Of a DNA stretch of 64,000 bases, positions 1,578 to 40,246 are shown piece by piece. Each line of letters begins with the position of its first letter. Positions within the stretch are counted from its first letter, which is position 1. The stretch is taken from the NCBI GenBank assembly GCA_963575745.1, contig CAUYUJ010015519.1:238653-302652 (forward strand), in the 5' to 3' direction. The position numbers and the translations under genes were made by a program. The notes below the pieces were generated by a model. It had not been told where the DNA came from and did no database searches. It was given only the letters and a program-made list of their open reading frames with translations. The stretch is from Prorocentrum cordatum (Eukaryota > Sar > Dinophyceae > Prorocentrales > Prorocentraceae).

Positions 1578-1971
1578 CTGGAAGCCGGCGGTGAACCGTC
1601 AACCAGGTTTTTGCGGGCTTAGCGGCGGTGTCCTCCAGCACATGCAAGCAGCGGTGCTCCCCGCGGCCACCAGGCGCAAGTGGCTCTACCGAGCGTGTGA
1701 GACGCTATCTATAATAAACGCAATCTGTGAGATTGCGTGGATAAGCTTCGAGGCGACAGTTAACTCACAGACCGTCACGGTTGATTCCCTATCGAGGCCA
1801 AACGCCTCCTCGGCAATCACGTGACACTGTATAGCATTTTGGTGTTCTACAAAAGCCACCAGCCACCAGCCACCCCCAGCCCCAATATCCGAAGTACCTC
1901 CGTCGAAGTAGCCTCTCAATCCTAAAACTTTCGAAGTAACCAGGTTAACGCCGGGGCCCTCGTAGAGCTCT
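1578..1971 (+). repeat. hairpin repeat split by an insertion, with 9-bp duplication
   Basis: The left half (1578-1609) ends in AACCAGGTT and the right half (1947-1971, CGCCGGGGCCCTCGTAGAGC) is preceded by a second AACCAGGTT. The two copies at 1601-1609 and 1938-1946 form a perfect 9-bp target-site duplication around a 328-bp insert. Joining the halves in the mind gives the same order as the uninterrupted copy at 16625-16680. Confidence 0.85.
1610..1937 (-). mobile_element. LINE-A copy 1: strongly 5'-truncated, RNase H end only
   Basis: This insert of 328 bp between two AACCAGGTT copies carries only the last part of the LINE-A protein (frame 1686-1919, minus). Visible are RGYFDGGTSDIGAGGGWW (first RNase H strand with the catalytic Asp, then the Gly-rich turn) and VTVCELTVASKLIHA (helix with the catalytic Glu). 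The frame stops shortly after that helix, as in the other copies. Severe 5' truncation with a target-site duplication is the usual outcome of target-primed reverse transcription. It is about 90 percent similar by eye to the matching part of the next copy (2058-2370), so the two are close relatives. Confidence 0.85.
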
Positions 1972-2133: not shown

Positions 2134-2716
2134 CTACCGAGCGTGTGAGACGCTATCTATAATAGACGCAATCTGCGAGACTGCGTGGATAAGCTTCGAG
2201 GCGGCAGTTAACTCACAGACAGTCACGGTCGATACCCTACCGAGACTCAACGCCTCCTCGGCAATCACGTGACACTGTATTTCACTATGGTGTTCTACAA
2301 AAGCCTGCAGCCACCAGCCACCCCCAGCCCCGATGTCCGAAGTACCTCCGTCGAAGTATCCTCTCAATCAAAAAAATCGAAGTATATAATGGAGCCAAAA
2401 TACTCGTTTCTCTCTGATGTGTGTGGGCATGCTCTGCAGGCCCACGTAAGTTAATCTGCATATGTGTTACCCTCGCGATACAGGTGATTAATCGGGTCAG
2501 ACCCCGCACACGCAGTTCTCAAACAGGTGTTAGTTAGCTCATCGAGGGTGTTCTGCGCAGCCGCAAAGGTATTGTTATGGCCCATGTTAGTACACCTCCA
2601 ACGCCCTCTTTCCAATGGACAACACACAAGCTGTCACCCAGCATCTCGAACGGTATCTTGTCGGATTCATAGTCGAAGACAGATTCATTTTCAAAGTTGT
2701 GAGCAATCCGACGCAC
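2134..2716 (-). pseudogene. LINE-A copy 2: permuted RNase H, frameshifted
   Basis: Three frames together read, in order, FEMLGDSLCVVHW (strand 4 with catalytic Asp), a trace of the linker (ITCIARV, compare LTHIARV at 30.4 kb), RGYFDGGTSDIGAGGGWW (strand 1 with catalytic Asp), and VCELTAASKLIHAV (helix A with catalytic Glu). The C-terminal half of the fold therefore precedes the N-terminal half, as in copy 3. The Asn/Asp motif of the last helix is lost at a frame break near 2510. Confidence 0.6.
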
Positions 2717-4556: not shown

Positions 4557-4560
4557 CAGG

Positions 4561-6233
4561 CGACATCTTTCGCCCACAACCACTTTTTGTGTATGAAGAG
4601 CTCAGCTGCCGAGGTAAGACCATGAAGGACCGTCCAGTCTCCTGTCGCCCCCTTCCCCCGCCCTCCAATGCTTGCCAGAAGCTTACCTTCCCGAGAGAAT
4701 ATCTTCTGAGCTGTGATGCTGTCAATCGCCACGCCCTCAACTACAAAGAGCATCTTACTATGGATACGGAGTCGGAAAAGCTGGAATCACCTTTCAATCG
4801 GAATTGGATGGCATCTATAATATTCAATGTCAGAAAAAAACGCCCCGCGAGCACGATCCAAGTTGAATTGCAAGTCACTATGCTGTGTCCAATATCTGTC
4901 CAATCGATTGCCCAAAATGTCCAGGGTGCTGACACATTCAAATATGTACGCGCGGGTCCGTGTAGATGTCACAACATCAAGAACTAGATCATTCGAGCCG
5001 TCGACGCCAAAGGGAATGAGCTTGAGAGAGGATGGTTTCCAATTGAGGCCGGCCTGGAGAAGGGGGGCAGTGAGCTCGTATATCATGGTTTTGAGCTGCC
5101 GGTTGTCTGCCCAGAGGGCATGGGAAATAATAGATCTAGTGGGCATGGGCACGGGGGACTCTACAATGCATCCCAGATCACGCCCAGCCCAAGCGCCGAC
5201 CATATCATTCCACAGGGCTACACTCACAATTTTGAATATGAACGGTCCATCAACTCCGCCCGCTCTGATACTCCGATCCCAGCCGATCCAGTCCAAATTC
5301 TGGGCCCCTTTCGAAGGTGGTCTTACAAGTATTTTCGGCCATGGGACCTAGAAGGGCATATATCAAAGCGGGGTCAAATCCAAGCTTCTCCATGCTTTGC
5401 AAGGCTGGCTTAAAAGTAACATGGTCGAATGCCTGTAGGACATCGAGGCTGGCAAGATAGAGCCTTTCCTCTTCTCCCCATTGGGCAGCGCGTTGACAAA
5501 GATGCTTGGTAAACGACGTGGCCTGCGAAACTTTCCTGAATTGTACAAACCCATACATGTTGAGGGAACGTTTGATCTTCTCAAAGTGTTGTTCCCCTTT
5601 AAGGACTAAGACGTGGTTGTACCATTTCTGGGCCAGGCTCAAAAGGCAGATCGCCCGAGTCTCAGAGAGCTCCTGGACGGACGGCGCCTTCGGGATGAGC
5701 GTTACTAGGAATCTCTTCCAATCTGAGGGGCCCTGTTGACGACGACTGGCGATCTGATTGAAATGGTGTCGGATTATCTTGAGGCTGGCAAAGGGAATGA
5801 GCAGCAACATCTCCCGCGACACTTGGTCGGGCCCTGCTGCCCCGCTCTTGAGGCGAGCATGTGCCTGCAGAATATCGTGCATGGCGATGCTCACGCACTG
5901 AGTCGGGCTGAGCTTCGATGCCAAACCTTCCGGTATAGACTGCACCTCCCTCCTAGCCCCGTAGTCCTCCACCCAGTCTTTCAAATACCTCCCAATTTCC
6001 ACCTGCGTGGCCTCAACATCATAGGTAAGTTCCCACTCCCCCGTCGTCTTTTTGACCTTAAGTGCCCGTGCTTGTGCACGTAGTTTGCGTTGTTCAACGT
6101 TGTGCTTGTATTCGAGCATGTCCGCATCATACTGTTTCCGTAACGGTTTGATCAATCTCCGAAGACTCCTCACTTCATTCTGGCATCTTCCCTGGGCCAA
6201 AGAGCACGTGGTAACAGCCGTTCGAGCGTCCAA
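4561..6233 (-). pseudogene. LINE-A copy 2: reverse transcriptase, frameshifted
   Basis: The frame at 6233-5250 (327 residues) carries a basic N-terminal linker, motif 1 (GAAGPDQVSREML), motif 2 (DWKRFLVTLIPK), a SETRAICLLSLAQKWY segment and motif A (YLASLDVLQAFDHV). After a frameshift near 5270 the frame 5296-4787 carries motif C as ALWADN, followed by TMIYELTAPLLQAGLNWKPS. A third frame (4753-4561) carries LFVVEGVAIDS and KKWLWAKDVA, matching FFGLEGATVDS and RQWRWAKDIA of copy 3. The domain is that of a LINE-type reverse transcriptase, which would copy the element's RNA at a nicked target. Asn in place of the second motif C Asp is shared with the other copies. Confidence 0.8.
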
Positions 6234-8473: not shown

Positions 8474-8530
8474 CTGGGGGCCGGCGGTAAACCGTCAACC
8501 TTGGCGACCGCCGGGAACTCGTGGAGCTTC
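8474..8530 (+). repeat. hairpin repeat, uninterrupted
   Basis: GGGCCGGCGGTAAACCGTCAA is followed by CCTTGG and CGACCGCCGGGAACTCG. One arm base differs from the consensus. Confidence 0.8.
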
Positions 8531-13854: not shown

Positions 13855-15240
13855 CTGGCGCCGGCGGTGAACCGTCAACCTGGTCTGCGATGTCTGCGTT
13901 GGCCGATTCGAGCTCCCAAGGGAGCAGGCCAGGACACAGAGAACCTAAACAGCGAAGCTGCAAAGATTAAAGCAGAGATGCATCAAACAGCGAAGCTGTA
14001 CAGAAATGCACAAGACTGCAAGTAAACGAGAAAACAACTAACAATATAATGAGTGAAGCAATGCAGGCCATAGATATGGAAGCAAAGCTAGAAGCAGTGA
14101 GAGACCATACAGTAAACACTGGTTTATACAGCGATTACCGTCTCACACCACTGAGACAAAAACGAAACTAAGAGAACTAAAATAGCGAGTGCGCTTCAAA
14201 GCAATGCGAGACCATGCAGTAACCACATATAGCGATTACCGTCTCAGCACCACTGGAAGACCATGCACGTGAAACACAACGTCGAAATATGGACTAGATA
14301 ACGAATTAAACGCGCAACATACAGAGTGAGCCAAGACACCCACCACTACTTAGAGCGAATGCGGGCTCTTATCCGAACACAGCGAAGATCAGGCGAAGCT
14401 CTTATTCAACACACGTGAATGCACAACAACACACAGGCATGAATAAAGGCAACGCAATGACAAAACACAATAGTTCTAACTCGAAGCATGTGGAAATCAA
14501 GTGCAATGAGTTCTGAACTCCACTCGAGGCGACGTATGACCTCAATATCAAAGACCTCAATATCAAGTACAATGAATTCTGAACTTCACTCGAGGCGAAA
14601 TATGAAATTGGATGCCCAAAAGACCTCAATATCAAGATACTCCGATGTCACAAAACTGTCAAAGTACTGAAGAAACTCGAACTGCAACTCGAACTGCAAC
14701 TTCTAACTCACGAAAGAAAAGATTCCAACCACCCCTCGAAGATTCCCACTGCGTTGTGAATAAGAATACTCAGACTGCGACCCAAGTCAAAATTGGATAC
14801 GTGCTGAGAGCAACTCGTACTAGAAAACAAATGCGGCAAGCACAAACACAAGCGGCCTGAAAGTACAAGCAGACAGCGAAACAAGTACAAAACAAGCGGC
14901 CTGAAGTACAAGATAACAAATGCAACGAGTACGATGAAAGCAAGCGGCCTATGCACCTGCTCCAATAGGAGCTGTCTCACTTGACACAACAGAGAACCCG
15001 GCACCTATCGTCTGTAGGCCCACGGAGAGGAGGTCGTCGCAGCCGACGAAGTACCCGAAGATATGGGACGGCCCGTACACGAGATGCACAGTGGAGTACG
15101 ATACGTGTGTGCACAGAAAACCTGTCCGCACAATGCGGCTCGAGGAGGCCACCGACGGGCCAGGTCGCCGCTGAGCTCCCCGAGGAGGGACAGCAGCAAC
15201 CTGGTCACCGCCGGGAACCTCGTAGAGCTCCTTGCACGTG
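13855..15240 (+). repeat. hairpin repeat split by a 1.3-kb insert, 9-bp duplication
   Basis: The left half 13855-13885 ends in AACCTGGTC (13877-13885), and the right half 15207-15240 is preceded by AACCTGGTC (15198-15206). The site and the length of the duplication are the same as for LINE-A copy 1. Confidence 0.85.
13886..15197 (-). mobile_element. non-LINE-A insert in the hairpin, possible non-autonomous retroelement
   Basis: This 1312-bp insert lies at the exact LINE-A landing point but carries no reverse transcriptase or RNase H motif. On its right side the minus strand holds an open frame (15281-14949) with a stretch reading GFLCTHVSYSTVHLVYGP, of unknown origin. The middle has repeats of 'cagcgaagctgcaaag' and of 'gagaccatgcagtaa...gattaccgtctca'. 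The left terminus (about 140 bp, 'ttcgagctcccaagggagcagg') is shared with the insert at 17251-17476. One reading is a retrocopy or SINE-like element moved by LINE-A enzymes. Direction is inferred only from the shared terminus. Confidence 0.6.
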
Positions 15241-15575
15241 TAAGAGTCCTCAGAATCGAAGCAGACAGCTTCTCGGAGCATTTCGAGAAAAACGTCAAAT
15301 TTGCATTTGTCGGTGTCAACCTGATGTCGGTTGCTCCAAATGTTTCGATCGTAAAACTCTCTCTAGACAGCTGAGCTACTCTCAGAATTAAGTTTAAACT
15401 CTGATGCTGGACGTAAAGATCTGGCTTCTCAAAATGAACTGTCAATTATCTTTCAAATATTAGCAAAACCGACCCAAAGTCACCACATTGTCCCTTCTGG
15501 TCGGGTCAAACAACTAGCTCCACCCCGCGCCGGCACTATTCTAGCTCATCCTTAACGAAGTGCTCTACGAGGTAC
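15199..15575 (+). repeat. R1 dispersed repeat, reference copy
   Basis: This is the clearest R1. It starts at the hairpin right half and 'cctcgtagagctccttgcac', passes 'gatgtcggttgctccaaatg', 'tgctggacgtaaagatctgg' and 'aaaaccgacccaaagtcacc', and ends 'gctctacgaggtactcc'. The length is about 375 bp. Open frames across it are not shared between copies. Confidence 0.65.
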
Positions 15576-15651
15576 TCCATGTCGACACGAAAATGCAAGA
15601 AAATATTATGCGAAGTTCTCTGCTTAGATTCTGAGCACTCTTCCGCGCGCA

Positions 15652-15710
15652 GAGGAGCTCTACGAGGTTCCCGGCGGTGACCTGATTGACGGTTCACCGC
15701 CGGCGCGAGT
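15652..15710 (-). repeat. hairpin repeat, uninterrupted, inverted
   Basis: GCTCTACGAGGTTCCCGGCGG is followed by TGACCTGATTGACGG and TTCACCGCCGG. The arms are intact except for one base. Confidence 0.75.
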
Positions 15711-15834
15711 TACTTCTCTAGCTTCGCCGCTAACGCTCTTAGGGAAGCTCTACGAGTCACGAAATCCAAGTTGACACTCGGCGTCCAAAACCCGGATAGC
15801 AAAGAGGCGCTCACACAAACGCAGCACACGCACG

Positions 15835-15880
15835 CGGGTGAACCGTCAACCTGGTTACCGCCGGGGACCTCGTAGAGCTC
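15835..15880 (+). repeat. hairpin repeat, left arm truncated
   Basis: GGTGAACCGTCAACCTGG is followed by TTACCGCCGGGGACCTCG. The first arm is cut short after 'acgcacgcggg'. Confidence 0.65.
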
Positions 15881-15984
15881 GTCGCACGCCCGAGGGATCG
15901 GAATGGAAGCAGAGAGCTTCAGAGATCATCTTCTTAAATATCTTTTCGAAAACATGTTTCATGTCCCCAGCCGACCCTCAATTG

Positions 15985-16280
15985 GGTCCGCGCGAGCTCG
16001 AGCCCGAGCCCGAGCTCGAGCCCGAACACAAGCCCGAGCCCGCGCACGGGCGCACGCACCAGCGCAAGCCCGAGCGCAAACCCAAGCCCGAGCCCGAGCG
16101 CGATGCCAAGCTCGAGCCCGAGCGCGAGCCCGAGCCCGACCTCTGAGTCCGAGCTCAAGCCCGAGCCCGAGCCTGAGCCCAAGTCCGACAGCGAGCCTCA
16201 GCCCGAGCCCAAGCCAGAGCGCGACTAAGCCCGAGAGTCTGAGTGCGAGCCCGAGCCCGAGTTCGAGCCCGAGCATCAGC
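15985..16280 (+). repeat. hexanucleotide array (GAGCCC-type)
   Basis: Imperfect GAGCCC units continue for about 290 bp. They give Glu-Pro, Arg-Ala or Ser-Pro dipeptide frames on the plus strand and Gly-Leu frames on the minus strand. It is treated as a simple repeat, not a gene. Confidence 0.8.
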
Positions 16281-16624
16281 ACGCTCTGTTCGTGTCACCA
16301 TACTACCGGTTTCTCCACGTATTTTGATAGTGAAACTGCATCTAGAATGCTCATATTTAGACGCAGAGCGTATTATAGCATGCTACGTGTAGGGAGAATA
16401 TGATTTCTTAATATGACCAGAAATCTCTATCAAATCTTAAGAAAATCAAGCCCAAGTCACCACATGTTCCGTTCTGGTCGGGTCGATCAAACAGCTCCAC
16501 CCTGCCGAATTGCCGAATTCCTCTTAGCTCCTCTTGCCGAAGCTCTACGAGGTACTTGGTAGCGAAACTCGGATAGCACTTGGTAGCGACCAGAACCCGG
16601 ATAGCAAAGAGGCACTCACACAAA

Positions 16625-16680
16625 CTGGGAGCCGGCGGTAAACCGTCAACCAGGTTACCGCCGGGAGCCTCGTAGAGCTC
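16625..16680 (+). repeat. hairpin repeat, reference copy
   Basis: This copy is uninterrupted and close to the consensus: arms CCGGCGGTAAACC (16632-16644) and GGTTACCGCCGG (16653-16664), then the constant flank GAGCCTCGTAGAGCTC. The loop region contains AACCAGGTT (16648-16656), the target at which all the inserts described here join. R1-type sequence follows to about 16960. Confidence 0.85.
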
Positions 16681-16998
16681 TTGTCTCGCGCGGCGCTACT
16701 CGGGAAAGATGGAGAAAGCTTTTTCAAGCGTTAGCTGAAAAACTCCAAAAACACGTTTACCGGTTTTCATCCAAAGTCGGTTCCCCAAGTGTTTTGATAG
16801 TAATACTGCAGCTACGGATCTCAGAATTTAACCGGCAGACGCAAGATAACCCGCTACAGGTGCGAAGAATACCGTTTCTGAGTACGAATTTCAAAATCTC
16901 TCAAGATCTTCGAAAACCAATCCAGCCTGACACTTGGTAGCGTCCAAAACCCGGAGAGCGAGGAGGGGGCTCTTCTCAAGCGCTTCTGAAGCGCTGCC

Positions 16999-17050
16999 AA
17001 GCACGCTTCCACGCGCGTCTGCACGCGCGCAGGCACGCGTGGACGCGTGC
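16999..17050. repeat. imperfect palindrome rich in CACGCG/CGCGTG
   Basis: A stretch GCACGCTTCCACGCGCGTC followed by TGCACGCGCGCAGG and CACGCGTGGACGCGTGCC reads nearly the same on both strands. It would fold into a strong stem. Confidence 0.6.
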
Positions 17051-17219
17051 CGGAAGCGCCCCCAGACCAGCTGCCGGCTCAAACAAGCCCCTGCGGGGAT
17101 TCTGGACCGCCGTGGAGGAGCTGCTGGCAGGCACCACCACCGTCTGGCTTCTGATCTGAAACCTTATAGCTGTCAGGGAGCTCTCTGGGAACATTGTCCG
17201 TCCGGGCCGGGTTCGCCAA

Positions 17220-17500
17220 CTGGCGCCGGCGGTGAACCGTCAACCTGGTCTTTTTTGCGTCTTTTGCGAAGGCCGGTTCGAGCTCCCATGGAAGCAGGCC
17301 TAAACACAAAGAACCTAAACAGCGAAGCTGCACAGGAAGACAGCGAAGCTGCAAAGATTAAAGCAGAGGTGCATCAAACAGCGAAGCTGTACAGATATGC
17401 ACAAGACTGCCAATACACGAAAAGACAAATAAAAATAGAAAGAGGGAAGCAAAGCAGTGCGAGACCATGCACAACAAGAGCTCCTTGCACGCACAAGAGT
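17220..17500 (+). repeat. hairpin repeat split by a 226-bp insert
   Basis: The left half 17220-17250 ends in AACCTGGTC. The insert 17251-17476 begins 'ttttttgcgtcttttgcg' and shares 'gagctccca', 'acctaaacagcgaagctgc' and 'agcagaggtgcatcaaacagc' with the insert at 13886. The right side resumes at AGAGCTCCTTGCACGC (17477), with the right arm lost. No clear second duplication copy is seen. Confidence 0.65.
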
Positions 17501-17767
17501 GCTTAGAATGGAAGCAGAGAACTTCGCAGAAGATTTTCTTCAAAATCTTAATTTTTGCATTTTGTGATGTCAATATGAGGTCGGTTCTGGGAAGTCAACA
17601 GATAGTAAAACTCCCTCGAGCAAGCTGACCTGCTCTGAGAACACAGCTTATATGCGCATGCTTAGCGTAAAAATCTTGTTTCTTAAAATGAATTGCCAAA
17701 TATCTTTCAAATCGTAGCAAAACCGACCCAAAGTCACCACATTGTCCGTCCGGGCCGGATGGGCCAA
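17477..17767 (+). repeat. R1 dispersed repeat
   Basis: R1 blocks 'gcttagaatggaagcagag', 'gtcaatatgaggtcggttc', 'cttaaaatgaattgccaaa' and 'aaaccgacccaaagtcacc' occur in order. It runs straight into the hairpin left half at 17768. Confidence 0.6.
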
Positions 17768-17800
17768 CTGGGAACTGGCGGTAAACCGTCAACCTTGGTT
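17768..17800 (+). repeat. left half of the hairpin at LINE-A copy 3
   Basis: CTGGGAACTGGCGGTAAACC is followed by GTCAACCTTGGTT (to 17800), directly joined to the LINE-A 3' end. The right half (TACCGCCGGGAACTCG) is at 20631-20646. Confidence 0.85.
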
Positions 17801-17866
17801 TTGGCGCATTGCGTGCCGCCACAGCAGGGTCGGGTCACCGCCCAGGCGATAGCCACACAAGGAGGC

Positions 17867-18877
17867 CTAGCATCCTGCCAAACGCAGGCATTCCTCCACT
17901 CCCAGAAGGAGTTGTCGGGCAGACTCTAACTCAGCTGCAGCGATAGTGCTCGAGGGGGGAAGGGGGAAAGAGGATGAAGCCACGTTGGGCTCCCACACGC
18001 CACTCGGGAGAGTGACAGGATAGTCAGCAACAGAAAAGGAGCACAAATGGAAATCAATCTGCCAGCCACAGCCTACGCCCTGATAGGATCTTCCACCATC
18101 GAAGCTTCCCCGAATAGCGTCGATCAGAATAGCGTTAGCTTTAACATGGGATAGGAAATCATGCCTAAAACGTGTTCTACAAATTCCCTGTCGAGCTCTG
18201 TGTGTTAACTCATCCGCAGCAGCATTGCCCCCCCTGTACACCCACTTGAAGATATGTCTCCCAAGAGAGGCCGCCTGCATACCACATCTCTTAGCTAGAG
18301 TGTCTAAAGTATTATGAATACCGCCCACAATCTTGTCATAATGCACATTAGCAGTAAAATACAAGCCTTGGATCCACCGCACAACACATTGAGAGTCTCC
18401 TTTCAGTTCAACGGCAAGCCTTCCCGCCTGGAACTCCCACTCCGCGTAATCCTCCAATATCTTAGCATACCTTTTGGACAACACCTCCTCCTTCTTCCTG
18501 CTGAGCTCCTCCGAAAGTACCTCCTCCTCCCTCTCCTCCATAGGCTTCCAAGGAATAGGATCTTTAAGAACCAGGAAATCAGAAACACCAGGAAACTGGA
18601 GAAGCGCAAAAACTTCGCGAGCAAACTTGACCCAGGCCTCCTCCGTCCATTCCAGAACATGGTACCAGTATTTCCCTCCCACGAGCTCAAAAGGTGTTCT
18701 CCACGGGCGCATGCCGATAGGAACTCGGCCAGTCCTCGCACGAGTCCCAGCACGCCCAGCCTGGCTTCCTAGAGATAATACCAGATCATCCCGCCTGGAT
18801 TCCCACTCCCCTCCACCGTGCAACATGGACAGTCGCGCCTGCAGGTAGCCATTGACAGCAGTGCCAGTGTCCACCAC
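17867..18877 (-). CDS. LINE-A linker and circularly permuted RNase H
   Basis: This frame of 336 codons has no ATG near its start: it follows the RT frame in the same phase after a single TAG (18895-18893), so it is probably the second half of one polyprotein. Residues 1-105 match the linker of copy 2. Residues 112-140 are Glu/Lys-rich. RNase H motifs follow in the order VELKGDSQCVVRW (Asp161), HIFKWVYRGGNAAADELTH (Asp222), AIRGSFDGGRSYQGVGCGW (Asp260) and IAAAELESARQLLLGVEECL (Glu316). In ordinary RNase H the last two come first. All four catalytic acids are present. The expected role is removal of the RNA strand after first-strand synthesis. An alternative is two RNase H domains, each incomplete; the common end point in all copies argues against it. 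Confidence 0.75.
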   Translation of the reverse strand: MVDTGTAVNGYLQARLSMLHGGGEWESRRDDLVLSLGSQAGRAGTRARTGRVPIGMRPWRTPFELVGGKYWYHVLEWTEEAWVKFAREVFALLQFPGVSDFLVLKDPIPWKPMEEREEEVLSEELSRKKEEVLSKRYAKILEDYAEWEFQAGRLAVELKGDSQCVVRWIQGLYFTANVHYDKIVGGIHNTLDTLAKRCGMQAASLGRHIFKWVYRGGNAAADELTHRARQGICRTRFRHDFLSHVKANAILIDAIRGSFDGGRSYQGVGCGWQIDFHLCSFSVADYPVTLPSGVWEPNVASSSFPLPPSSTIAAAELESARQLLLGVEECLRLAGC

Positions 18878-18892
18878 CGTAGGCTGATTGTA

Positions 18893-20554
18893 CTAACGGG
18901 TTGGGTCCTCGAACCTGTCTCTGAGCCTCGCCGTATTCTGTGAAAGTTGGGCCCTCTGACGTTTGGCCTCATTCATGCACATCGTCTTTCTTTTCCGTCG
19001 GTTCATGGGCTCGGAGGGCGTCGCATTATCAGCAGAAGCACCAGGAGCATACAAAGGAGACGGCACCAACTGTGAGCCACCCACCACAGATACCTCCTCC
19101 ACGCCACCACCGTCTCTGCCAAAACAAGACAATGCAATATCCTTCGCCCATCTCCACTGCCGATACAAGAAGACTTGTGCGAGTGGAGGTCTGCCAGCTT
19201 CACATGAAGCTTGCCTCCCTCTTCTGTGCATGCGCGACATGAATACAGCCCACCCCTCCTCCTCCCTCTTTGCTCTCCACGTCATCCTGCTCAACATATT
19301 CCCCTCCTCCTTATGTATAAATGCAATCGTAGAACTGTCAACCGTGGCTCCTTCCAAGCCGAAAAAAAACTTAGATTTCACTCTCGATTCATATCGCCTA
19401 AATTTATTCTTCCAAGCAATTATCCTGGAGGTGTAAAACGCACGATCATTCCAGAAAGCACGAACAGCTTTTCCCATACGATATCGCACATCATCATGAT
19501 CCTTGAAATTCCTCGCAATCATAGTCCCGAGCACAATAATCTCATCCACCTGCGGAATGGTAATACTCTCAGGGAGAGACACATTGGGCCCCCTGGACAT
19601 ACCTGGCGGGAACAACGCCACCATGAGAGGCTCCGTCACACCGGTGGTAGTTCCCACATCCATGAACTCAAGACTGCTCTGCTTCCAACGAAAGCCATGA
19701 TCGTGGAGAGCCCACGTCAACTGTAAAATCATTTTAGCCAGTGTGGGGCGATCAGGAGCCGTAAGAAGCACGTTGTCCGCCCATATGAAGTGACTCACAA
19801 CAATACCTCCCGCCTCACTAGAGAGTTCAACACCGACAGCATCTCCCGCCCAAGCAGAAAAAATATCATCAAACATGACCAATGATTGAGCAGTCCACAG
19901 GTCAGGTCCTTCCTTGGAACCTGTCTTCACACACGTTGTCCAAGGGAGCGTATCAGTGCAGACACCCTCAAATTGAAAGACCACCTCATTACCGACAGAG
20001 TTCTCAATAAGACCATACCGAAGCTCCACATCAACACACAAACGCTCAAGCGTAGAAGAAGCAACTTGGACAGTGAGCGAATCAAATGCAGTGGCAACGT
20101 CCAAGGAAGCAAAAACAATATTCTCCTCCTTCCCCCACAACCTGGCATGTCTACACATCGCCTTCACTCCGGAGGTCACCTCATGTGTCTCACGACCTTG
20201 CTGGAAACCATACAAGCACAGAGACGGAGCAACAACAGGAGCAATAGACACCAAGTGCAAATTGAGTAGAATACACAAGCAGCCCATATACCATGTGTTA
20301 ACGACAGAATTCACAGCAAGAGTACGACTGTCATCAAACCTCTTTTCCCTTCCGTTCTTCAACATAATAGATGCACGAATGAACTTCCAAGACTCAGGTG
20401 CCTCTGCCATTCGCCAGGAGCGTCGCTGGAAGCAGTCTAACACCACACGTAGGGCTTCCCAGGGCAAAGAACGTAACATGCGTGCACTGATACCGTCAGC
20501 ACCTACAGCCTTGCCTTCACGAAGCCTCGAACGAGCACGACAGAGAACATGCAT
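18893..20554 (-). CDS. LINE-A reverse transcriptase
   Basis: A 553-codon frame from ATG at 20554 to TAG at 18893. Visible motifs are motif 1 (GKAVGADGISARML, residues 14-27), motif A (VFASLDVATAFDSL, Asp152), motif B (GSKEGPDLW, 212-220) and motif C (HFIWADNVLLTA, 255-266). Usual LINE enzymes have YADD at motif C, and Asn replaces the second Asp here. The remainder contains the thumb region (GLEGATVDS, QWRWAKDIALSCFG) and a basic tail with NRRKRK. The enzyme would copy element RNA at the target. The start region lacks the residues before motif 1 that copy 2 still has, so the annotated start may be internal to the ancestral protein. The stop is in phase with the RNase H frame; readthrough or a nonsense change are both possible. 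Confidence 0.85.
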   Translation of the reverse strand: MHVLCRARSRLREGKAVGADGISARMLRSLPWEALRVVLDCFQRRSWRMAEAPESWKFIRASIMLKNGREKRFDDSRTLAVNSVVNTWYMGCLCILLNLHLVSIAPVVAPSLCLYGFQQGRETHEVTSGVKAMCRHARLWGKEENIVFASLDVATAFDSLTVQVASSTLERLCVDVELRYGLIENSVGNEVVFQFEGVCTDTLPWTTCVKTGSKEGPDLWTAQSLVMFDDIFSAWAGDAVGVELSSEAGGIVVSHFIWADNVLLTAPDRPTLAKMILQLTWALHDHGFRWKQSSLEFMDVGTTTGVTEPLMVALFPPGMSRGPNVSLPESITIPQVDEIIVLGTMIARNFKDHDDVRYRMGKAVRAFWNDRAFYTSRIIAWKNKFRRYESRVKSKFFFGLEGATVDSSTIAFIHKEEGNMLSRMTWRAKREEEGWAVFMSRMHRRGRQASCEAGRPPLAQVFLYRQWRWAKDIALSCFGRDGGGVEEVSVVGGSQLVPSPLYAPGASADNATPSEPMNRRKRKTMCMNEAKRQRAQLSQNTARLRDRFEDPTR

Positions 20555-20614
20555 GGTAATAGGAGAAGAAGTGTGAGTGCTGCACGCACGTGCCTCATCA
20601 GCTTGAACCCGAAG

Positions 20615-20633
20615 CTTGAGCCAAAATGGCTAC
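20615..20633 (-). other. spliced-leader relic at the 5' end of LINE-A copy 3
   Basis: The minus strand reads GTAGCCATTTTGGCTCAAG. This equals the last 19 of the 22 bases of the dinoflagellate spliced leader (DCCGUAGCCAUUUUGGCUCAAG, from memory of the literature). It ends 61 bases before the ATG. It is not followed by a GT splice donor in the leader's direction, so it is not a spliced-leader RNA gene but the trace of a trans-spliced mRNA that was reverse transcribed. Confidence 0.9.
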
Positions 20634-20755
20634 CGCCGGGAACTCGTAGAGCTTCCTCGCGCAATGCGGGCGCGGCAATCTCGCATTGCGCGCGCGAGGA
20701 CGCGGTCCCATAGGGGAGGACGTAGACGAGAAGGAGGAGCGAGGGAAAAGCACCT
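20631..20755 (+). repeat. hairpin right half and GC-rich palindrome
   Basis: TACCGCCGGGAACTCGTAGAG closes the hairpin split by LINE-A copy 3. Next comes the palindrome CTCGCGCAATGCGGG...CGCATTGCGCGCGCGAG (20661-20701), then a short GGA-rich tail. The order is the mirror image of the ends at 11.0, 12.4 and 13.4 kb. Confidence 0.75.
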
Positions 20756-21945
20756 CTGGAAAGAAATAATAGACACACCAGACCGAGTTCAGGCGGTTTT
20801 ATATATATATATATATATATATTATACAAAAAAAGAAAAAAATGTTCGGCCACAGCGCTGATAGAAAAACTGATTTCAGGCTTCTAGATACTTTGAACTA
20901 GCACGCCTGATTAGTTCCTTTCCATTGCTGTGCCGAACAGCTCTGTGGATAATCTGCAGCTCGAGCTAAGTCAAGAAAAGCATCACTATCTCGAACAAAT
21001 TAGCAGAGTACGAATAGTGGGTCAGCCCCAGCGATGATAGCAGACAGTGATCAGGCGTCTAGATACTGCAGACTATCGCGCCTGATGAGTTCCTTCCGAT
21101 TGCTGTGCCGAACAGCTCTGTAGCCCATCTGTAACTCGAGTTAAGTCAAGAAAAGCATCACACTCACGAAAAAAATTAGCAGAGTATGAATAGTTTTTGT
21201 CAGCCCCATCGCTGATAGCAGACCGAAATCAGGCGTCTAGATGTATCCAACTAGCGCGCCTGATGATTCCCTTCCAATTTCTGTGCTGAACAGCTCTGTA
21301 GCTCATCTGCAGCTCGGGTTAAGTCAAGAAAAGCATCACCATCTCCAAAAAAAAGAAGAGCACGAATAGGTTTTCAGCCCCAGCGCTGATAGCAGACCGA
21401 GATCAGGCGTCTAGATACTGCAGACTATCGCGCCTCACGATTCCCTTCTGATTCCTGTGCCAGAGATCTGTAGCTCATCTGCAGCTCGAGTAAAGTCAAG
21501 AAACTCATCATCATCCCCCAAGCAAATAGTAGAGTACGAATAATTTGACGGACCTAGCTCGAGTAGCAGACCGAGTTCAGACCTCTAGATGGTTGAGAGG
21601 AACGCGCCTGATCATTCTGGATCGATTAGGTGTGCGCGTCAGCTCTGTAGCGCTCCTGAAGCTCGAGTTAAGTACAGAAAACGACAGCATCTGTCACGAT
21701 CACACAAAACAGCCGATCCCGCCCCAGTGCTTTTTGGCACTAATAGGTACCCGATCGACCTGAGATTGAGATGGCGAGCGGGGATAAGATCTAATGTGAG
21801 GAGAAAAAAGACTAGAGCTCGAACGAAATCTTGAATTTCGAGAAATCGAATTTAAAGACGTCAAAAAAAGACAAAACTTCCGCCGAGATTTGTTTACGAA
21901 CTAGCCCCCCAGCACGCCGGATTACTCTTCTAGCTTCGAGGCTAA
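20756..21945 (-). repeat. composite repeat unit 4 (inverted)
   Basis: A TA run lies at 20803-20822. About five monomers follow (20860-21655; 'ctgtgccgaacagctctgt', 'ctcgagttaagtcaagaaaagc', 'gatagcagaccgagatcagg'), then the head block 21655-21925 ending GCCCCCCAGCACGCCGGATTA. The pieces match units 1-3 in reverse orientation. Confidence 0.75.
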
Positions 21946-22361
21946 CTGGGAGCCGGCGGTAAACCGTCAACCAGGTTACCGCCGGAAGCCTCGTAGAGCT
22001 CTTTTCTCGCGCGGCGCTGCTCGGGACACGTCCAGGGAGCTTTCTCGAGCGTGAGCTCAAAAACTCGAAAAAAAAACAAGCTTTTCGGTTTTCATACAGG
22101 GATGGTTACTTCAAGTGTTTTAATAATAAAACTGCAGATACGGACCTGAGAATTCAACTGGCAAGCGCGGAATAACCCACGACAGGTGCGAAAAATACCG
22201 GTTCTTGAAACGAATGTTCAAATATCTCACACTGTTCGCCCAACCGCCCCAAAGTTCACGCGTTGCCCGTCGGGATCGGATTGGCCAACTTGGTGCACCC
22301 CGCGCCGGAATTCCTCTAGCTCATCGATGCCGAAGAGCTCTAGGCAAAACTTCCGTCGAAA
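21946..22361 (+). repeat. hairpin repeat plus R1
   Basis: The hairpin at 21946-22000 is uninterrupted (CCGGCGGTAAACC and GGTTACCGCCGG). R1 follows to 'ctcatcgatgccgaagagctc' at 22319-22340. This is one of the most complete hairpin-R1 pairs, about 400 bp. Confidence 0.75.
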
Positions 22362-23575
22362 CTGGGAGCCGGCGGTAAACCGTCAACCTTGGTTCCCGCC
22401 GGGAACTTGTAGGGAGCTTCCTCGCGCAGCGCGGGCTCGGCAATCCCGCACTGCGCGCGCGAGGGCGCGATTTCATGGAGGAGGACGCGGAGGAGAAGGA
22501 GGAGTGAGAAAAAAACCTCTGGAAAGAAATAATAGACATACCAGACGGAGTTCAGGCGTCTGGACACTTCATCACCATCTCTAAAAAATTGAGAATAATG
22601 TTTCGGCCCCAGCGCTGATAGTAGACCGAGATCAGGCGTCTAGATGTTTTCAACTAGCGCGCCTGATGATTCCCTTCCAATTTCTGTGCTGAACAGCTCT
22701 GTAGCTCATCTGCAGCTCGGGTTAAGTCGAGAAAAGCATCAACATCTCGAAAAAAAACAGACGAGGAATAGTTTTCAGCCCCAGCACTGATAGCAGACCG
22801 AGATCAGGCGTCTAGATACTGCAGACTATCGCGCCTGATGAGATCCTTCCTATTGCTGTGCCGAACAGCTCTGTACCCCATCTGCAACGCGAGTTAAAGA
22901 AAAAGCATGAACATCTCAAAAAAATTAACAGAGCACGACTAGTTTTTCAGCCCCAGCGCTGATAGCAGACTGAGTTCAGGCGTCGATACTTTCGAACAGC
23001 GCGCCTGATGATTCCCTACAAACTTCTGTGCTGGATTGCTCTGTAGCTCATGTGCAGCTCGAGTTAAATCAAGAACACCATCATCATGAAAGAGAATACG
23101 AACAGTTTTCTGACTCAGCTAGCAGACCGATGATTTTCTTCCGCTTGATGTGCTCTGTAGCTCATTTGCAGCTCAAGGAAGGTCGAGAAACTCACCAACA
23201 TCTCCAAAAAAGATAATAGAGTACGAACAGCTTCGCGGACCTAGCTCGAGTAGCAGACCGAGTTGAGAGCTCTAGACGGTTGAGAGGCACGCGCATTCTG
23301 GATCGATTAGCTGTGCGTGTCAGCTCTGTAGCGCTTCTGAACGAGTTAAGTACAGAAAAACGACAGCATCTGTCACGATCCCGCCTGAGTGCATTTTGGC
23401 AGTGGTATCCGATCGACCTGAGATTCAGACGGCGAGCGGAAATAAGATCGAATATTGGGAGAAAAAAAAAATAGAGCTCAAACGAACTCTTCAAGTCCGA
23501 CAAAAGAGACAAAAGAACTTCCGTCGAGATTTGGTGGCCAAATAGCCCCCAGCGCGACGAATTACTCTAGCTCTT
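22362..23575 (-). repeat. composite repeat unit 5 (inverted)
   Basis: The order is hairpin 22362-22419, GC-rich palindrome about 22425-22470, short purine tail, about five monomers (22560-23345), and head block (23345-23575, 'cccgcctgagtgcattttgg', 'cggcgagcggaaataagatcg'). Confidence 0.75.
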
Positions 23576-25231
23576 TGCCGCTAACGCTCTTAGGGAAGCT
23601 CTACGGGTCATTCGTTAACGAACTGGCCTCCCGCGCCGCTCTTCTAGCTTCGCCGCTAACTCGCGGTGATGAACCGTCATCCTGGTCACCGTCAGGAACT
23701 TCGTAGAGCTCTTTGCGCGCGTAAGAGTGCTCGACATCAAAGCAGGGAACTTCGCAGAAGATTTCTGTGGAATATTTAATTTTCATGTTTTCATCTCTAC
23801 ATGAAGTTGGTTATGCCAAGTGCTTTCTCAGCAAAATGGCGCCTACGGACTCATAGTCTTTCCCAGCTGCAAAAAAAAACAGTTTATCAAAATGAATTGT
23901 CAAATATCTTGAAATTTTCGCAAAACCAAAGTCACCACATTGTCCTTTCTGGTCGGGTCGACCAACTGGGCGTCGCAGAAGCCGCGAGCGCGCCCACAGA
24001 GGCCCGACGCGCTGCCCACTGACGCTCCCAAGACAGTCCACAGAGGCTCCAGCCCACAGAAGCGCCAATCGCGCCCACAGAGGGATTGCCTTTCTCTCCG
24101 GGTTTTGAACCCTACAAGTGGACGCTACCAAGTACCTCTTAGAGCTCTTCGGCATCGATGAGCTAGAGGAATTCTGACGCGGGGTGGAGCTATTGGTCGG
24201 TTTTGCTAGATTTGAGAGATATACCTCGTAGAGCTCTTCGGCATCGATGAGCTAGAGGAATTCTGGCGCGGGTTGGAGCTAGTTGGTCGACCCGACCAGA
24301 GTGATAACTTTGGGTCGGTTCTGCTCAGATTTGAAAGATACTTGACAATTCATTTTGAGAAACCAGATTTTTTGCAAATGTAGAAGGGTATCAGAGCCTC
24401 CGCGTCTTAATATGAGCTCTCTAGGCGCACTTTTACTACCAAAACGCTTGGAGGAACCAACTTTATTTCGACATGGAAAGAATTAATGTTCAATTTTTCG
24501 AGAAATGCCTCCAGAAGCTCTCTCTTTCGACTCTGAGCTCTCAAACGCGTGAACGGAGCTCTACGAGGTTCCGGCGGTGACCAGGTTGACGGTTCGCCGC
24601 CAGCGCCAGTTTGTTTATTTTGAGAAAGCAGATTTTTTCGTTCCTGCAAACAACTATCAGGGCCTCTGCGTCTAATATGATCTCTGAAGGCGCAGATGTA
24701 CTATCTATCAAATTACTTCACTATGAAACACGACATGAAAAAGAAGAATGTTCAATTTTTTGAAAAATGCCTCCGGAAGCTCTCTCTTTCGAGTCCAAGC
24801 ACTTTACTCGTGCAAGAGCTCTACGACAGTCCCGGCGGTTACCAGGTTGACGGTTCACCGCCGGCACTAGTCGGCGCAGGCTGTGTCGGGGGCAGCGCAC
24901 TGGGGACACCAGAAAGCTTTCCTGGCGAGCCCTCCAACGCTCTCGCACTGGCAAACGGCGGTAAACCGTCAACCAGGTTACCGCCAGAGCCCTCGTAGAG
25001 CTATTTACTCACACGGCGCTCCTCGGTAAGCATGAAGAAAGCGTCTAGAGCAAGACCTGAGAAACTCCAAAAATCACGTTTTTTCTAGTTTTTTCTAACG
25101 TCGGTTCTTCTGAGTGTTTCAATAGTAATACTGCACCTATGGGCCTGAAAATTTTACTGGCGGACGCGCCATAACCCACTACAGGTGCGAAAAATCTGCA
25201 TTTTGAAAATGAATTGTCTAATATCCTTCAA
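23576..25231. repeat. cluster of R1 pieces and four hairpins in both orientations
   Basis: Hairpins lie at 23660-23710 (+, degenerate), 24556-24610 (-), 24816-24870 (-) and 24948-25001 (+). Between them are R1 pieces in both orientations, including two inverted R1 ends at 24125-24160 and 24222-24260. A segment with 'cccacagag' repeated four times lies at 23994-24084. No gene is seen. Confidence 0.6.
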
Positions 25232-29959: not shown

Positions 29960-30402
29960 CTGGGCGCCGGCGGTAAACCGTCAACCTTTCTTGTTTGCCT
30001 TTTGCGATCTGTCTAATGGCTGCCAAAAGCAGCCACAGGTCGTTTCTTCAGCTTAACCCTACGGGCGAAGTTACGGGTTACACTAAAGATGGCCTCGCAG
30101 AGGCTCGATAAAGCTTCGAATTCAGCGGTCATGGCAGAATATTGAGGGGGAAGGCCAAACGCCTTCGATTTGATCAGCACCCATTGTGGTCTGTCCAGAA
30201 AGGCAAAGCTCCCATATATTGAATGAGATGCCGATGCTTTGATCAATCCCTCCAGCCACCAACCTGCTCCTGCTTTATCCTTATCGACTCCACCGTCGAA
30301 AGCGCCCCGAAGGGCATAAAGGTCATACTCCTGTAGCTCGTGTGTCCTATCATACTCTATATCTCTGACGCGTGCAATGTGAGTTAATTCATTATCTTGC
30401 AC
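29960..30402 (-). mobile_element. LINE-A copy 4: 3' fragment joined to a hairpin left half
   Basis: The hairpin left half 29960-29992 (ending AACCTTTCTT) is joined to LINE-A sequence. The minus-strand frame 30402-30013 (129 residues) reads NELTHIARVRDIEYDR, then ALRGAFDGGVDKDKAGAGWW and AMTAEFEALSSLCEAIF. The first part corresponds to the end of the last RNase H helix (ADELTHRARQG in copy 3), and the rest to the first strand and Glu helix. The permuted order is thus preserved in a third, well-diverged copy. The 5' side ends near 30405 without a visible hairpin right half. Confidence 0.8.
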
Positions 30403-36757: not shown

Positions 36758-38060
36758 CTTCCCCTAGGCCCAATATGATCACCGAGCGGAAAGCCGACCA
36801 AGCACTATGTCGGGTTTGTGAACAACCAGAGCTCCTTGAATGCAAACATTTTCGGCAGGATTACCTATGCGGCCGCGTGGGCACAGATGCGCAGCCACAA
36901 CCTCTCCAGGTGGCTCCTGGACACCAGCCAAGGGAGGAGATGGCAGCCGTCCGACGGGGGCGAGTGGAAACTGCTGCGCCACTGCACTTCTTTCACCGAA
37001 GCGCACCACGTGACGTGATCCGCGTCCTATGCAACGGCCTACCTGGCTCGGCGAGACGGAGGAGCGAAGATGAAAGGAGGCCGCGCATGTGTTCATGCGG
37101 GGCACCGGCCAAGAGCGTGTGGATCACCGCCAGTCCCAGCGACGATGGCGCAGCCTGGTGCGCGCGATGCATCGGCCCAGGCCCGCGCGCATCTGCGCTC
37201 TGGCAGACGCTACCACCCTGCCTGCTACCCCCCTCTCTTCGAGACCAAGCAGAGGCTTGCGCGCTTACCTGTGGGCACCTGCACCCGCCCAACAGAGACG
37301 GACCATATGGGCGCTGCCCTCAGTGTGGACTCGGCGAGGCAACCGCCGAACACGTGTGGAACTGGTGCCCAGCCGCGGCACTTGCTTGGTGCACCGTCAG
37401 GGGCCCCGACGACCCACGGACCTTTGCCCAAGCCATCGCCAGCAGCGGCGAACATCAGCCCTTGCTCGCGAAGTTGCTGCGCCAAATATCCTTCAGGTAC
37501 TGCGTCGACCTCGCCGCCGCCCCCCTGGAGGCTACCGAAGCCGCCGGGCTCATCCTGCAGGGTATAGTCGTTGCCGACATTGACCAATATGGGAACAGCG
37601 AGGGCGAGGGGCAGGAGGTGGAAGACCCCCCCCCCAGGATCGACAACCCAGACGAGACGTCTGTCTGGTCCGCCATGCGAGATACCTGCAGTATGTGCAA
37701 CCCATGCGCCATCCTTGAAAGAACGATCTGTGGAGCTGCCAGGCCCCATATGCAGCGACGCGCCCGCAGGGCTGGAGGAGAGATCCGCAGGCTCCCGGTG
37801 GTCACCAGACACCACAACCCTGGGGACAGACTTGCGGTCTTACAGGCGCCACAGACCCGGGCCGCATGGATGCTCCCAGGGCGAGGCTGGTTCACTTGCC
37901 CCAGAACTGACGACGCTCCCATCGCCAGCTGGACTTCAGTCTTCTGCCGGGAGTGCAGGTCTCACACCACCGCCCTGGCCGCCAACTCTAGCCTGGAACC
38001 TGGCGACGAGGTCGCAGTTCGCAGCTCGCCCTTCCCCGACTCCAATAGTACCCAATGCCC
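36700..38060 (+). pseudogene. LINE-B post-RT region with Cys/His motif
   Basis: The main frame (part of 36490-38166) carries GRCPQCGLGEATAEHVWNWC, a C-x2-C-x8-H-x4-C arrangement like the zinc-binding segment found after the RT in many LINEs. Further Cys pairs (CSCGAPAK, WCARC, CSMCNPC, FCREC) may form more zinc sites. The alternative frame at 36818-37018 (SRWLLDTSQGRRW) suggests a local frame change near 36850-37020. Confidence 0.55.
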
Positions 38061-38690
38061 TGTGAGGTCTCCCTCGACGGTGGTGCTAGGAGCATTGAGG
38101 GCGCCACCAAGGAAACGGGTGCTGGGGCCATCCTGTGGCGCCACAACCCCGCCGTTGCCATTGTAGCGCTCCCAGACTGTGGCAGCGCACAGATGGCCGA
38201 AGTAGCTGGCTGCCGTGCTGGTCTGGCCCTGCTCCCCCACCTCAGGGGCCCGCTCCGGGCCGCCAGAGTGGTCGGCGACAACCTCGCCGCCGTGCGATAC
38301 GGGGCGGGCACCGCCAGATACCGAAGGCTCCACCTAGCCCGGCAGATGGAGGATGCCCTAGGGCAGGCGGAAGGTGCGGGCTGGGTACTCACGTGGCAAG
38401 CGGTCAGACGGAGGCTGAACAAGGCCGCTGACAGCCTCGCCACCATCGGGATCTACTGGGCCGACGCCCTTTGCAAGGAAGGCGTGAGCACGGTCAGCAC
38501 TCACATACAATGGGCGAGTGACGCCCCCGCCCGACCAGCTCACTTTCCTTTTCATGACGGACCGGAGGTCAACCTCTGCGACCCATCCGAGTGTGCTGCT
38601 GCTGCGTTCCAGCTGGAAAATCCTTCCTCCTCCCCTACTCCAGCTCTTCTCCGATCTGGTCGCCGATCGATCGATCCCCGCGCCAGCTGA
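38055..38690 (+). CDS. LINE-B RNase H (normal order)
   Basis: Residues from about 5 onward read VSLDGGARS (catalytic Asp), GAGAILWR, AQMAEVAGCRAGL (catalytic Glu), ARVVGDNLAAVRY (catalytic Asp) and LNKAADSLATIGIYW (catalytic Asp). This is the textbook RNase H succession and a useful contrast to LINE-A. The domain fills about residues 1-140. The remaining 70 residues are Pro/Ser-rich, ending at TGA 38690. The start shown is the first Met of the frame; the domain probably continues the preceding polyprotein. Confidence 0.8.
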   Translation: MPCEVSLDGGARSIEGATKETGAGAILWRHNPAVAIVALPDCGSAQMAEVAGCRAGLALLPHLRGPLRAARVVGDNLAAVRYGAGTARYRRLHLARQMEDALGQAEGAGWVLTWQAVRRRLNKAADSLATIGIYWADALCKEGVSTVSTHIQWASDAPARPAHFPFHDGPEVNLCDPSECAAAAFQLENPSSSPTPALLRSGRRSIDPRAS

Positions 38691-38779: not shown

Positions 38780-40246
38780 ATGACGAAGAGGAACAATAAT
38801 GGGCCACTGGCCCGTTGGCCTTCCCCCGCAGTCCACTGTGCTGAAGGGCCGTGCAAGGTTGATGGCCGTCTTCCCTTCCGTGCGCGCGAGTGCCCGTGGC
38901 TCCGATGGGCGCACTTCCACGGCGAATGGTGCTGGTGGTGCGAGGTGTGCCAGAAACACGGTGACGGCAAGGGGCGTCCCCTGGGATGGCCCCGCGCAGT
39001 CGAAGCAGGAAAGCAGAAAGACACTGGTTGGCTGGACCCAGGGCAGTTCACCTCGCCAGGCAACCTCTGGACCAGAACGGGCGGCAAGGACTACGACCAG
39101 GTGTCCAAGATCACCGTCAGCAGACCACAATGGCCCGGCTGGGCGCTGCCAGAGCCAGTCAAGGAGGGCACCCTGCCCCACCTTCCAGGTTGGACCTTCC
39201 CAGACGACTGGGACTACGTTCCAGTCAACTTCCCGTGCCGCGACGACCTGTTCGATTTCACCACCACCCCTGGCACCGTTCACTCGATGGACCTGCGCCC
39301 GCCTAACCAGTGCTGGGCGGGGTGGGGGAAGGCGCCCAGAGACGCGCGCAGAGCCTGGGGGGCCACGGCGCCTCCGCCACCGCCCCCGCCCGGCGCGTGC
39401 GTTGCGCCGCTCGGAGGGCCCCCCGCCTCGCGGAACCCATGGGGGGGGGGCGGAACAATGCCTCCAGCAGGGCCTCCTCGCAGGAATCAGCGGAATGGAC
39501 CCGGCCCAGGCGCGACGGAGATATGGGCCAATTCAGCTGGCCAGACGCCCCCTCCGCTGTGAGCAGAAAGGTAGTGCTCGAGTCATCAGCGGCCGCAGCA
39601 GCGGATGCCATCGCCCGACTATTCGCAGTCCCCGCCAACAGCGCAGCAGCCCAGTACCTCCTTCACACCCCCTCTGGCTCAGTTCCCTCGGGCGTGAACC
39701 TCCCGAGACATTGGGGGCGAGACCTGCGACAAATAGGGCGCACCCTCGACAGGCTGGCTTGGATTGAGTGCATGGCGGCCACTGACACCGTCTGGGATGG
39801 CCCCACCAAGGCCAAAACAGACTTGGTAAGAAGGCAGAGCTGCGCGCTGGGCGTGGCGGTCACCCCCATTGACGAGCAGTCCCCTTGTGAACTCCTCGAT
39901 CAGTTCAAGTTGCGGAATGCACCTCCCGCCCAGAAGGGGAAGTTGCCGCTGCACCTGCGCGGGCCCCAAGAGTTCAAGGTCCCCCTCAAGGGTCAGGAAC
40001 AGGGCAGGAAGCCCGCGCGCTACTCCTCAGCATCACCAGCCCATCCGCGGACCAAGTGGCCTCGCTCAAACTCTTGTGGGCACCCGAATTCGAAGGTGCT
40101 GCCCCCGCAAGCGACTGCGACGCGTTGGGTCTCAGACGGGGGACCAAGTACCCCAGCAACGGGGGCTTTGTGACATGCGACGTAGATAGATACGGGAAGT
40201 TCCACGCTGACGACAGGATTCCAAGGCCACACGAAGTGGGGGTGGC
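38780..40246 (+). pseudogene. Cys/Trp-rich region upstream of the helicase
   Basis: From ATG at 38780 the frame reads about 260 residues. A compact stretch has Cys, Trp and His residues: HCAEGPC, ECPWLRWAHFHGEW and CWWCEVCQKHG. It is reminiscent of a zinc-binding module, but I cannot name the family. It then reads WTFPDDWDYVPVNFPCRDDL. A second frame (39310-40173) continues with FSWPDAPSAVSRKVV and NLPRHWGRDLRQIG, and a third (40056-40266) with LWAPEFEGAAPASDCDALG and GGFVTCDVDRYGKFHADD. The last frame changes at a run of nine C (40267-40275) and continues into GYSAGVSLPLIAEIYRLQRP. These frames probably form one protein with the helicase. Confidence 0.5.

Follow-up and report, generated by a model that had tools for sequence, protein, structure and literature searches.

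Layout of the focal locus and of related copies

The focal locus lies on the minus strand of a 64-kb stretch of DNA (the window, which here means the whole stretch analyzed). It carries a reverse transcriptase (RT) part followed by a frame in which the motifs of RNase H occur in an unusual order. The features of this copy are as follows.

17867..18892, minus strand: focal open reading frame (ORF) of 341 amino acids plus TAG, with a linker or unknown domain and then the putative permuted RNase H domain
18128..18442, minus strand: C-terminal half of RNase H (strand 4 to last helix), placed first; E value of 3.6e-41 with a family HMM built partly from the window sequences
17873..18118, minus strand: putative N-terminal half of RNase H (strand 1 to helix A), placed second, at the protein end; E value of 2.2e-29 with a family HMM built partly from the window sequences
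18893..20629, minus strand: RT part of the focal copy; Pfam RVT_1, E value of 1.7e-4, below the curated cut-off
17774..17794, minus strand: conserved 21-nt 3'-tail motif, 72 nt past the focal stop codon and common to other copies

The stop-to-stop frame of 341 residues contains D166 (GDS), D227 (NAAAD), D265 (FDGG), and E321 (AELES), followed by TAG; these residues are positions 161, 222, 260, and 316 of a 336-residue frame, and the order of the four motifs on the minus strand is as the initial annotation had claimed. The RT frame (18896-20629, minus strand), with LDVATAFD as motif A and WADN as motif C, is in frame with the permuted domain, and a single TAG codon (18893-18895) stands between them. 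This codon is probably a defect of the focal copy, since in the homologue P0004 (858 amino acids, JGI) a single ORF extends without a stop from inside the RT across the permuted domain. The RT frame stops at 20629, where another repeat starts (20627), and the focal copy therefore looks like a LINE that is 5' truncated near 20627.

Pfam RVT_1 matched the RT of the family below the curated cut-off, with a second E value of 4e-5 besides that of the focal copy, and the PDB chain nearest to P0004 was 8c8j, titled "RNA-directed DNA polymerase" (E value of 0.018). Motif C of RTs usually reads Y/F-x-D-D. It is WADN in the focal copy, in P0004, and in two further window copies (near 586-738 and 4559-5293); the Asn at the second motif C position looks like a family trait, and the RT may be unusual or impaired. 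Between the RT and the RNase H, at 18443-18892 (minus strand) and in homologues, there is a conserved stretch (MLHGxGEWxxHRD ... WTExxW ... KRLAxxFExET), for which we obtained no Pfam match and detected no RNase H similarity.

A self-comparison of positions 15000-24000 revealed direct repeats flanking the focal element, for example, 16623-16903/21944-22231 (81%) and 17477-17772/23705-23970 (68%). Because these sequences have further matches elsewhere in this region, they appear to be interspersed repeats and not a pair of LTRs. The 21-nt motif, GGTTGACGGTTYACCGCCGGC, was found with up to 3 mismatches at 20 sites of the window, compared with none in 100 shuffles. It is present shortly past the frames with the permuted RNase H in three diverged copies, as well as at numerous other positions, which suggests SINE-like repeats that share the LINE 3' tail. 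Rfam gave no matches on the 64-kb window, and the predicted folding of two 3' tails was no better than that of shuffles (z of 0.41 and -0.59).

Further copies, the LINE-B element, and example sites of the 21-nt motif are located as follows.

2379..2677, minus strand: copy 2, C-terminal half, pieces in two frames with an in-frame stop
2152..2367, minus strand: copy 2, N-terminal half, after the C-terminal half and in a third frame (family HMM)
1704..1919, minus strand: tandem repeat of the copy 2 N-terminal half, a duplicated 3' end (family HMM)
30316..30393, minus strand: copy 4, end of the C-terminal half (NELTHIAR), from an alignment to P0007; weak alone (E value of 0.15)
30058..30315, minus strand: copy 4, N-terminal half (family HMM, E value of 5.7e-33)
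38049..38690, plus strand: LINE-B RNase H in canonical order, outside the permuted family; Pfam RVT_3, E value of 7.8e-5, 23 bits versus a cut-off of 21.6
17774..17794, 29966..29986, 1584..1604, and 8480..8500, minus strand, and 24845..24865, plus strand: GGTTGACGGTTYACCGCCGGC

The family HMMs located four N-terminal halves in the window. C-terminal-half sequence lies directly before the N-terminal half in the focal copy, copy 2, and copy 4, and in the DNA of these three copies a stop codon is present past the end of helix A. Copy 2 had been cited in support of the order and does support it, its C-terminal half (2677-2379) preceding its N-terminal half (2367-2152). The same claim for copy 4 held in part: the end of the C-terminal half (30393-30316) directly precedes the N-terminal half (30315-30058), but this end is weak by itself, with the E value of 0.15 given above. 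The initial annotation had named a full second domain past the N-terminal half as an argument against permutation; the family HMMs detected no second C-terminal half after any of the four N-terminal halves. The contrast with LINE-B, also drawn there, is borne out by the RVT_3 match, in which residues 19-132 of LINE-B align to profile positions 9-121 in normal order. Downstream of LINE-B, at 40211-42097 (plus strand), a long frame contains AAA_11/AAA_12 helicase-type domains. The tails of the tandem 3' ends of copy 2 (1704-1919 and 2152-2367, minus strand) are ~94% identical over 114 bases; a dN/dS analysis of these ends (20 differences in 216 bases) was uninformative, since the two methods disagreed.

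Motif order and catalytic residues among homologues

Three protein searches, one of which scored only the 8000 candidates that share most words with the query, retrieved 27 homologous proteins from JGI, ENA, and EukProt. All 19 that hold both halves have the C-terminal half before the N-terminal half, so the motif order is constant among the homologues collected; the remaining 8 are fragments that include only one of the halves or none. A search with a profile in the rearranged order returned 20 hits, comprising 5 fragments and 15 proteins with both halves, each of the latter permuted; this search needs exact shared 5-residue words, and the lack of ordinary RNases H among its hits says little. 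Since several of the 27 proteins are near-duplicates (P0001/P0004, P0005/P0006, P0017/P0018, and the Pyramimonas fragments), we counted subfamilies instead, of which roughly nine were distinguished by eye, about 20-45% identical.

All named hits were from Pyramimonas sp., a green alga (EukProt labels), and no dinoflagellate was among them. P0008, P0010, and P0013-P0015 of this alga are 69-96% identical to differing parts of the focal ORF. On these hits, the window would come from Pyramimonas or a near relative of it, unless the data set with these proteins is contaminated, and the attribution to a dinoflagellate is not supported. In P0003, also from Pyramimonas sp. (EukProt), the strand-4 GDS stretch is missing although the regions on either side are well conserved; either the gene model is wrong or an internal deletion has occurred. 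In IMG/VR we found no relatives of the permuted family and no canonical references either. Of the 37 pattern matches in a scan of GTDB, a single locus was confirmed; it encodes a canonical RNase HI from a bacterium, which then served as a reference.

The catalytic residues were inspected by eye in the proteins that reach each site. (i) The Asp of the last helix and the Asp of strand 1 were each present in 21 of 21 proteins. (ii) The Glu of helix A was found in 13 of 13, a count that leaves out P0019, which is without the helix-A stretch, and P0002, P0003, P0020, and P0021, which end before this residue. (iii) The Asp of strand 4 was found in 16 of 18, not counting P0003, the two exceptions being P0024 and P0026, both Pyramimonas fragments, where it is replaced by Val. 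The 11 sequences of the family profile were picked by motif patterns, so that the presence of the catalytic residues in 11/11 of them is partly circular and their invariance partly a result of selection.

In all 11 profile sequences, 58 to 61 residues separate the Asp of strand 4 from that of the last helix. The spacer from there to the Asp of strand 1 measures 32 to 43 residues, and the chain extends 20 to 48 residues past the Glu of helix A. The distance from the strand-1 Asp to this Glu is 56 to 61 residues in seven of the profile sequences and 41 to 46 in the other four, compared with 38 in Escherichia coli RnhA, as counted on its sequence.

We also searched for an RNase H in normal order, the occurrence of which upstream had been put forward in the initial annotation as speaking against permutation. 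From the RT onward, none was found in the focal frame, P0004, or P0006. A canonical RNase H between the RT and the permuted domain was rejected, the domain upstream of the permuted RNase H giving an hhalign E value of 0.67; HMM matches above 0 bits were absent from the focal RT frame and from what precedes the permuted domain in P0004 and P0006. There was no remnant helix A before strand 4, where the local alignment begins, and the conserved stretch KRLAANFENETEF that precedes strand 4 has no canonical RNase H counterpart at that place.

These data bear on the alternative that the locus holds remains of two RNase H domains, the first decayed down to its C-terminal half and the second truncated to its N-terminal half, which do not function as one. 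Such an arrangement is exactly what a history of duplication would yield, and it would agree with the broken state of copy 2 and with the two Pyramimonas fragments devoid of the strand-4 Asp. We nevertheless judge it improbable, because both halves and their catalytic residues are kept over roughly nine diverged subfamilies, the spacing between the two Asp residues of the C-terminal half is nearly constant, and no trace of the missing halves could be detected alongside; half domains that have no partner would hardly remain conserved.

Homology of each half and tests of the restored order

For comparison we used a canonical profile of 12 sequences, namely, the RNase HI P0028 of a bacterial metagenome-assembled genome, nine phage RNases H, E. 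coli RnhA, and LINE-B. The C-terminal half matched this profile with an hhalign probability of 97.5 and an E value of 7.1e-12. It also matched the NCBIfam model of RNase HI, NF041175, in the focal sequence (E value of 4.8e-5, model positions 66-135 of 143) and in P0006 (2.1e-5), both far below the curated cut-off of the model. The family profile matched five PDB sequences, all of them RNases H (one titled putative uncharacterized ST0753), through the C-terminal half only and with a best E value of 0.0096; the nearest to this half were 3aly/2ehg, with an E value of about 0.01. Judged by sequence, the C-terminal half is clearly an RNase HI.

The N-terminal half alone gave an hhalign P value of 0.033 against the canonical profile; 2 of 300 column shuffles scored as well, and helix A alone was aligned. 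It had no PDB match, and Pfam matched it in none of the 4 sequences of one test and not in the single sequence of another. By itself, this half has diverged too far for tests with individual sequences. A Pfam scan of the focal ORF in its natural order was likewise without a match, and a precomputed RNase H label was carried by none of the 27 retrieved proteins.

The order itself was assessed by several profile tests. (i) Against the canonical profile, hhalign scored 79.4 for the restored order and 70.3 for the natural order, and none of 300 shuffles of the N-terminal-half columns reached 79.4. (ii) When the canonical profile was doubled, the natural order formed a single alignment with it that starts at strand 4 of the first copy, crosses the junction, and ends at helix A of the second. 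GDS, NAAAD, FDGG, and AEL fall on the corresponding canonical motifs, with all four catalytic residues in register; the gain in score at the junction was reached by 4 of 300 shuffles. As a positive control, real RNases H that had been permuted artificially crossed the junction likewise, whereas unpermuted ones did not. (iii) The junction crossing was kept in 10 of 11 removals of a single sequence and with 4 of 4 reduced canonical sets. The exception was the divergent member P0027, without which the junction gain vanished and the restored-order gain fell from +9.1 to +3.9; it was +5.2 when P0027 and copy 2 were both dropped. The 300-shuffle tests apply to the full profile. P0027 itself matched family models built without it through its C-terminal half (E value of 9e-10) and its N-terminal half (5e-6; best N-terminal-half stretch, 1.3e-4), and it had the top N-terminal-half score against the canonical model (4.5 bits). 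(iv) When individual sequences were rearranged, the NF041175 match improved clearly in one of five members, P0006 (E value from 2.1e-5 to 5.1e-8, with the match extended to model position 51), and slightly in the focal sequence (4.8e-5 to 2e-5) and P0016 (0.0036 to 0.00097). It did not improve in P0009 (0.0012 to 0.0015), and P0027 was unmatched in either order. With Pfam RVT_3, rearranging gave the focal sequence, P0004, and P0006 matches with E values of 0.02 to 0.04 that were absent in the natural order, left P0007 unchanged, modestly improved P0009, P0016, and P0027, and gave no match for copy 2; these RVT_3 matches are weak, and the matched stretch is mostly the C-terminal half.

The homology of the N-terminal half to strand 1-helix A of RNase H is thus supported statistically, at the profile level only. 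It has to be weighed against the possibility that only the C-terminal half is RNase H, the FDGG...AEL segment being some unrelated domain at the C terminus whose resemblance to strand 1 and helix A is due to chance. The lack of Pfam or PDB matches of this segment alone, its strand-1 Asp-to-Glu distance, longer in seven profile sequences than in E. coli RnhA, and the need for P0027 in the junction crossing are what such a domain would lead one to expect. The shuffle tests (0, 4, and 2 of 300) and the register of the Asp and Glu residues argue for homology instead, and P0027, which has the top canonical score for this half, joins the family by each half separately. An RNase H without strands 1-3 would also miss half of its active site, yet the remaining catalytic residues are conserved. 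We consider chance resemblance very improbable.

Interpretation and comparison with known systems

The reading we prefer, with a probability of roughly 0.8, is that the 3' end of the LINE RT ORF encodes a circularly permuted type-1 RNase H that is cut between helix A and strand 4. The chain of this domain would begin at strand 4, past the helix A/strand 4 loop, and run to the last catalytic helix, after which the spacer would lead to strands 1-3 and to helix A as the end. The swapped halves probably fold together within the chain into one RNase H core, which would unite D265, E321, D166, and D227 in a single two-metal active site. A spacer of 32 to 43 residues would permit pairing within or between chains, and the N-terminal half of one molecule might accordingly pair with the C-terminal half of another, as in a domain swap or a split enzyme; nothing speaks specifically against this and sequence alone cannot separate the two, but the intrachain fold is simpler, and assembly from two molecules is the alternative to which we give the least weight.

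The canonical C-terminal RNase H domains of LINEs are thought to degrade hybrid RNA during target-primed reverse transcription. By analogy, the permuted RNase H may remove the RNA from the RNA:cDNA hybrid in this process, cleaving the template once the first strand has been made. The initial annotation had proposed that the domain was circularly permuted by duplication and loss and is maintained. The order in 19 of 19 proteins and the profile tests support permutation and maintenance; duplication and loss is a plausible origin, but no trace of the lost halves came to light. On this route, a tandem duplication of the RNase H was probably followed by loss of the first N-terminal half and the last C-terminal half. 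We further lean toward the view that a microalgal LINE lineage (prasinophytes and possibly dinoflagellates) has an active, single-chain permuted RNase H that was fixed long ago and kept down to about 20-45% identity, and that would be the first of its kind in a retroelement.

Our searches of the literature on permutation and on algal LINEs and genomes yielded no retroelement with a permuted RNase H. The available part of PMC3985635 does not contain "permut," and in that of PMC5408684 "circularly permuted" refers to a scaffold. A 2025 preprint on CIRPIN describes, in the part available, one circular permutation between two predicted "Ribonuclease H-like" domains (PMC12667903); no retroelement or protein family is named there for this pair. 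The SymbioLINE-Dnmt elements of Symbiodinium, LINEs with a methyltransferase in ORF1 (PMC5890265), resemble the present family, as far as the available text shows, in being algal LINEs with an unusual domain make-up, their novelty being the ORF1 methyltransferase.

RNase H serves as a textbook example in studies of protein folding and of two-metal catalysis. If the preferred reading is true, a mobile element has, under selection, kept a re-ordered enzyme even though the catalytic residues of that enzyme are distributed along the entire chain, which would provide a natural comparison for folding studies and a clean shared-derived marker of a LINE clade. Domain scans have a blind spot here, as the focal ORF had no Pfam match and the 27 proteins no RNase H label, and similar permuted domains may be under-annotated.

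Type-1 RNase H (RNase HI; Pfam RVT_3/RNase_H, NCBIfam NF041175) has the same motif set and the catalytic residues D-E-D-D, but in the permuted family strand 1-helix A comes after strand 4-last helix and not before. Compared with E. coli RnhA, the family has 18 to 23 additional residues between the strand-1 Asp and the helix-A Glu in 7 of 11 sequences. LINEs of the clades I, R1, LOA, and Dualen contain a C-terminal RNase H in normal order after the RT in the same ORF. The focal family shares with them the position of the RNase H after the RT in one ORF, whereas it differs from these LINEs and from LINE-B in the permuted order and in the extra MLHGxGEW...WTExxW stretch between the RT and the RNase H.
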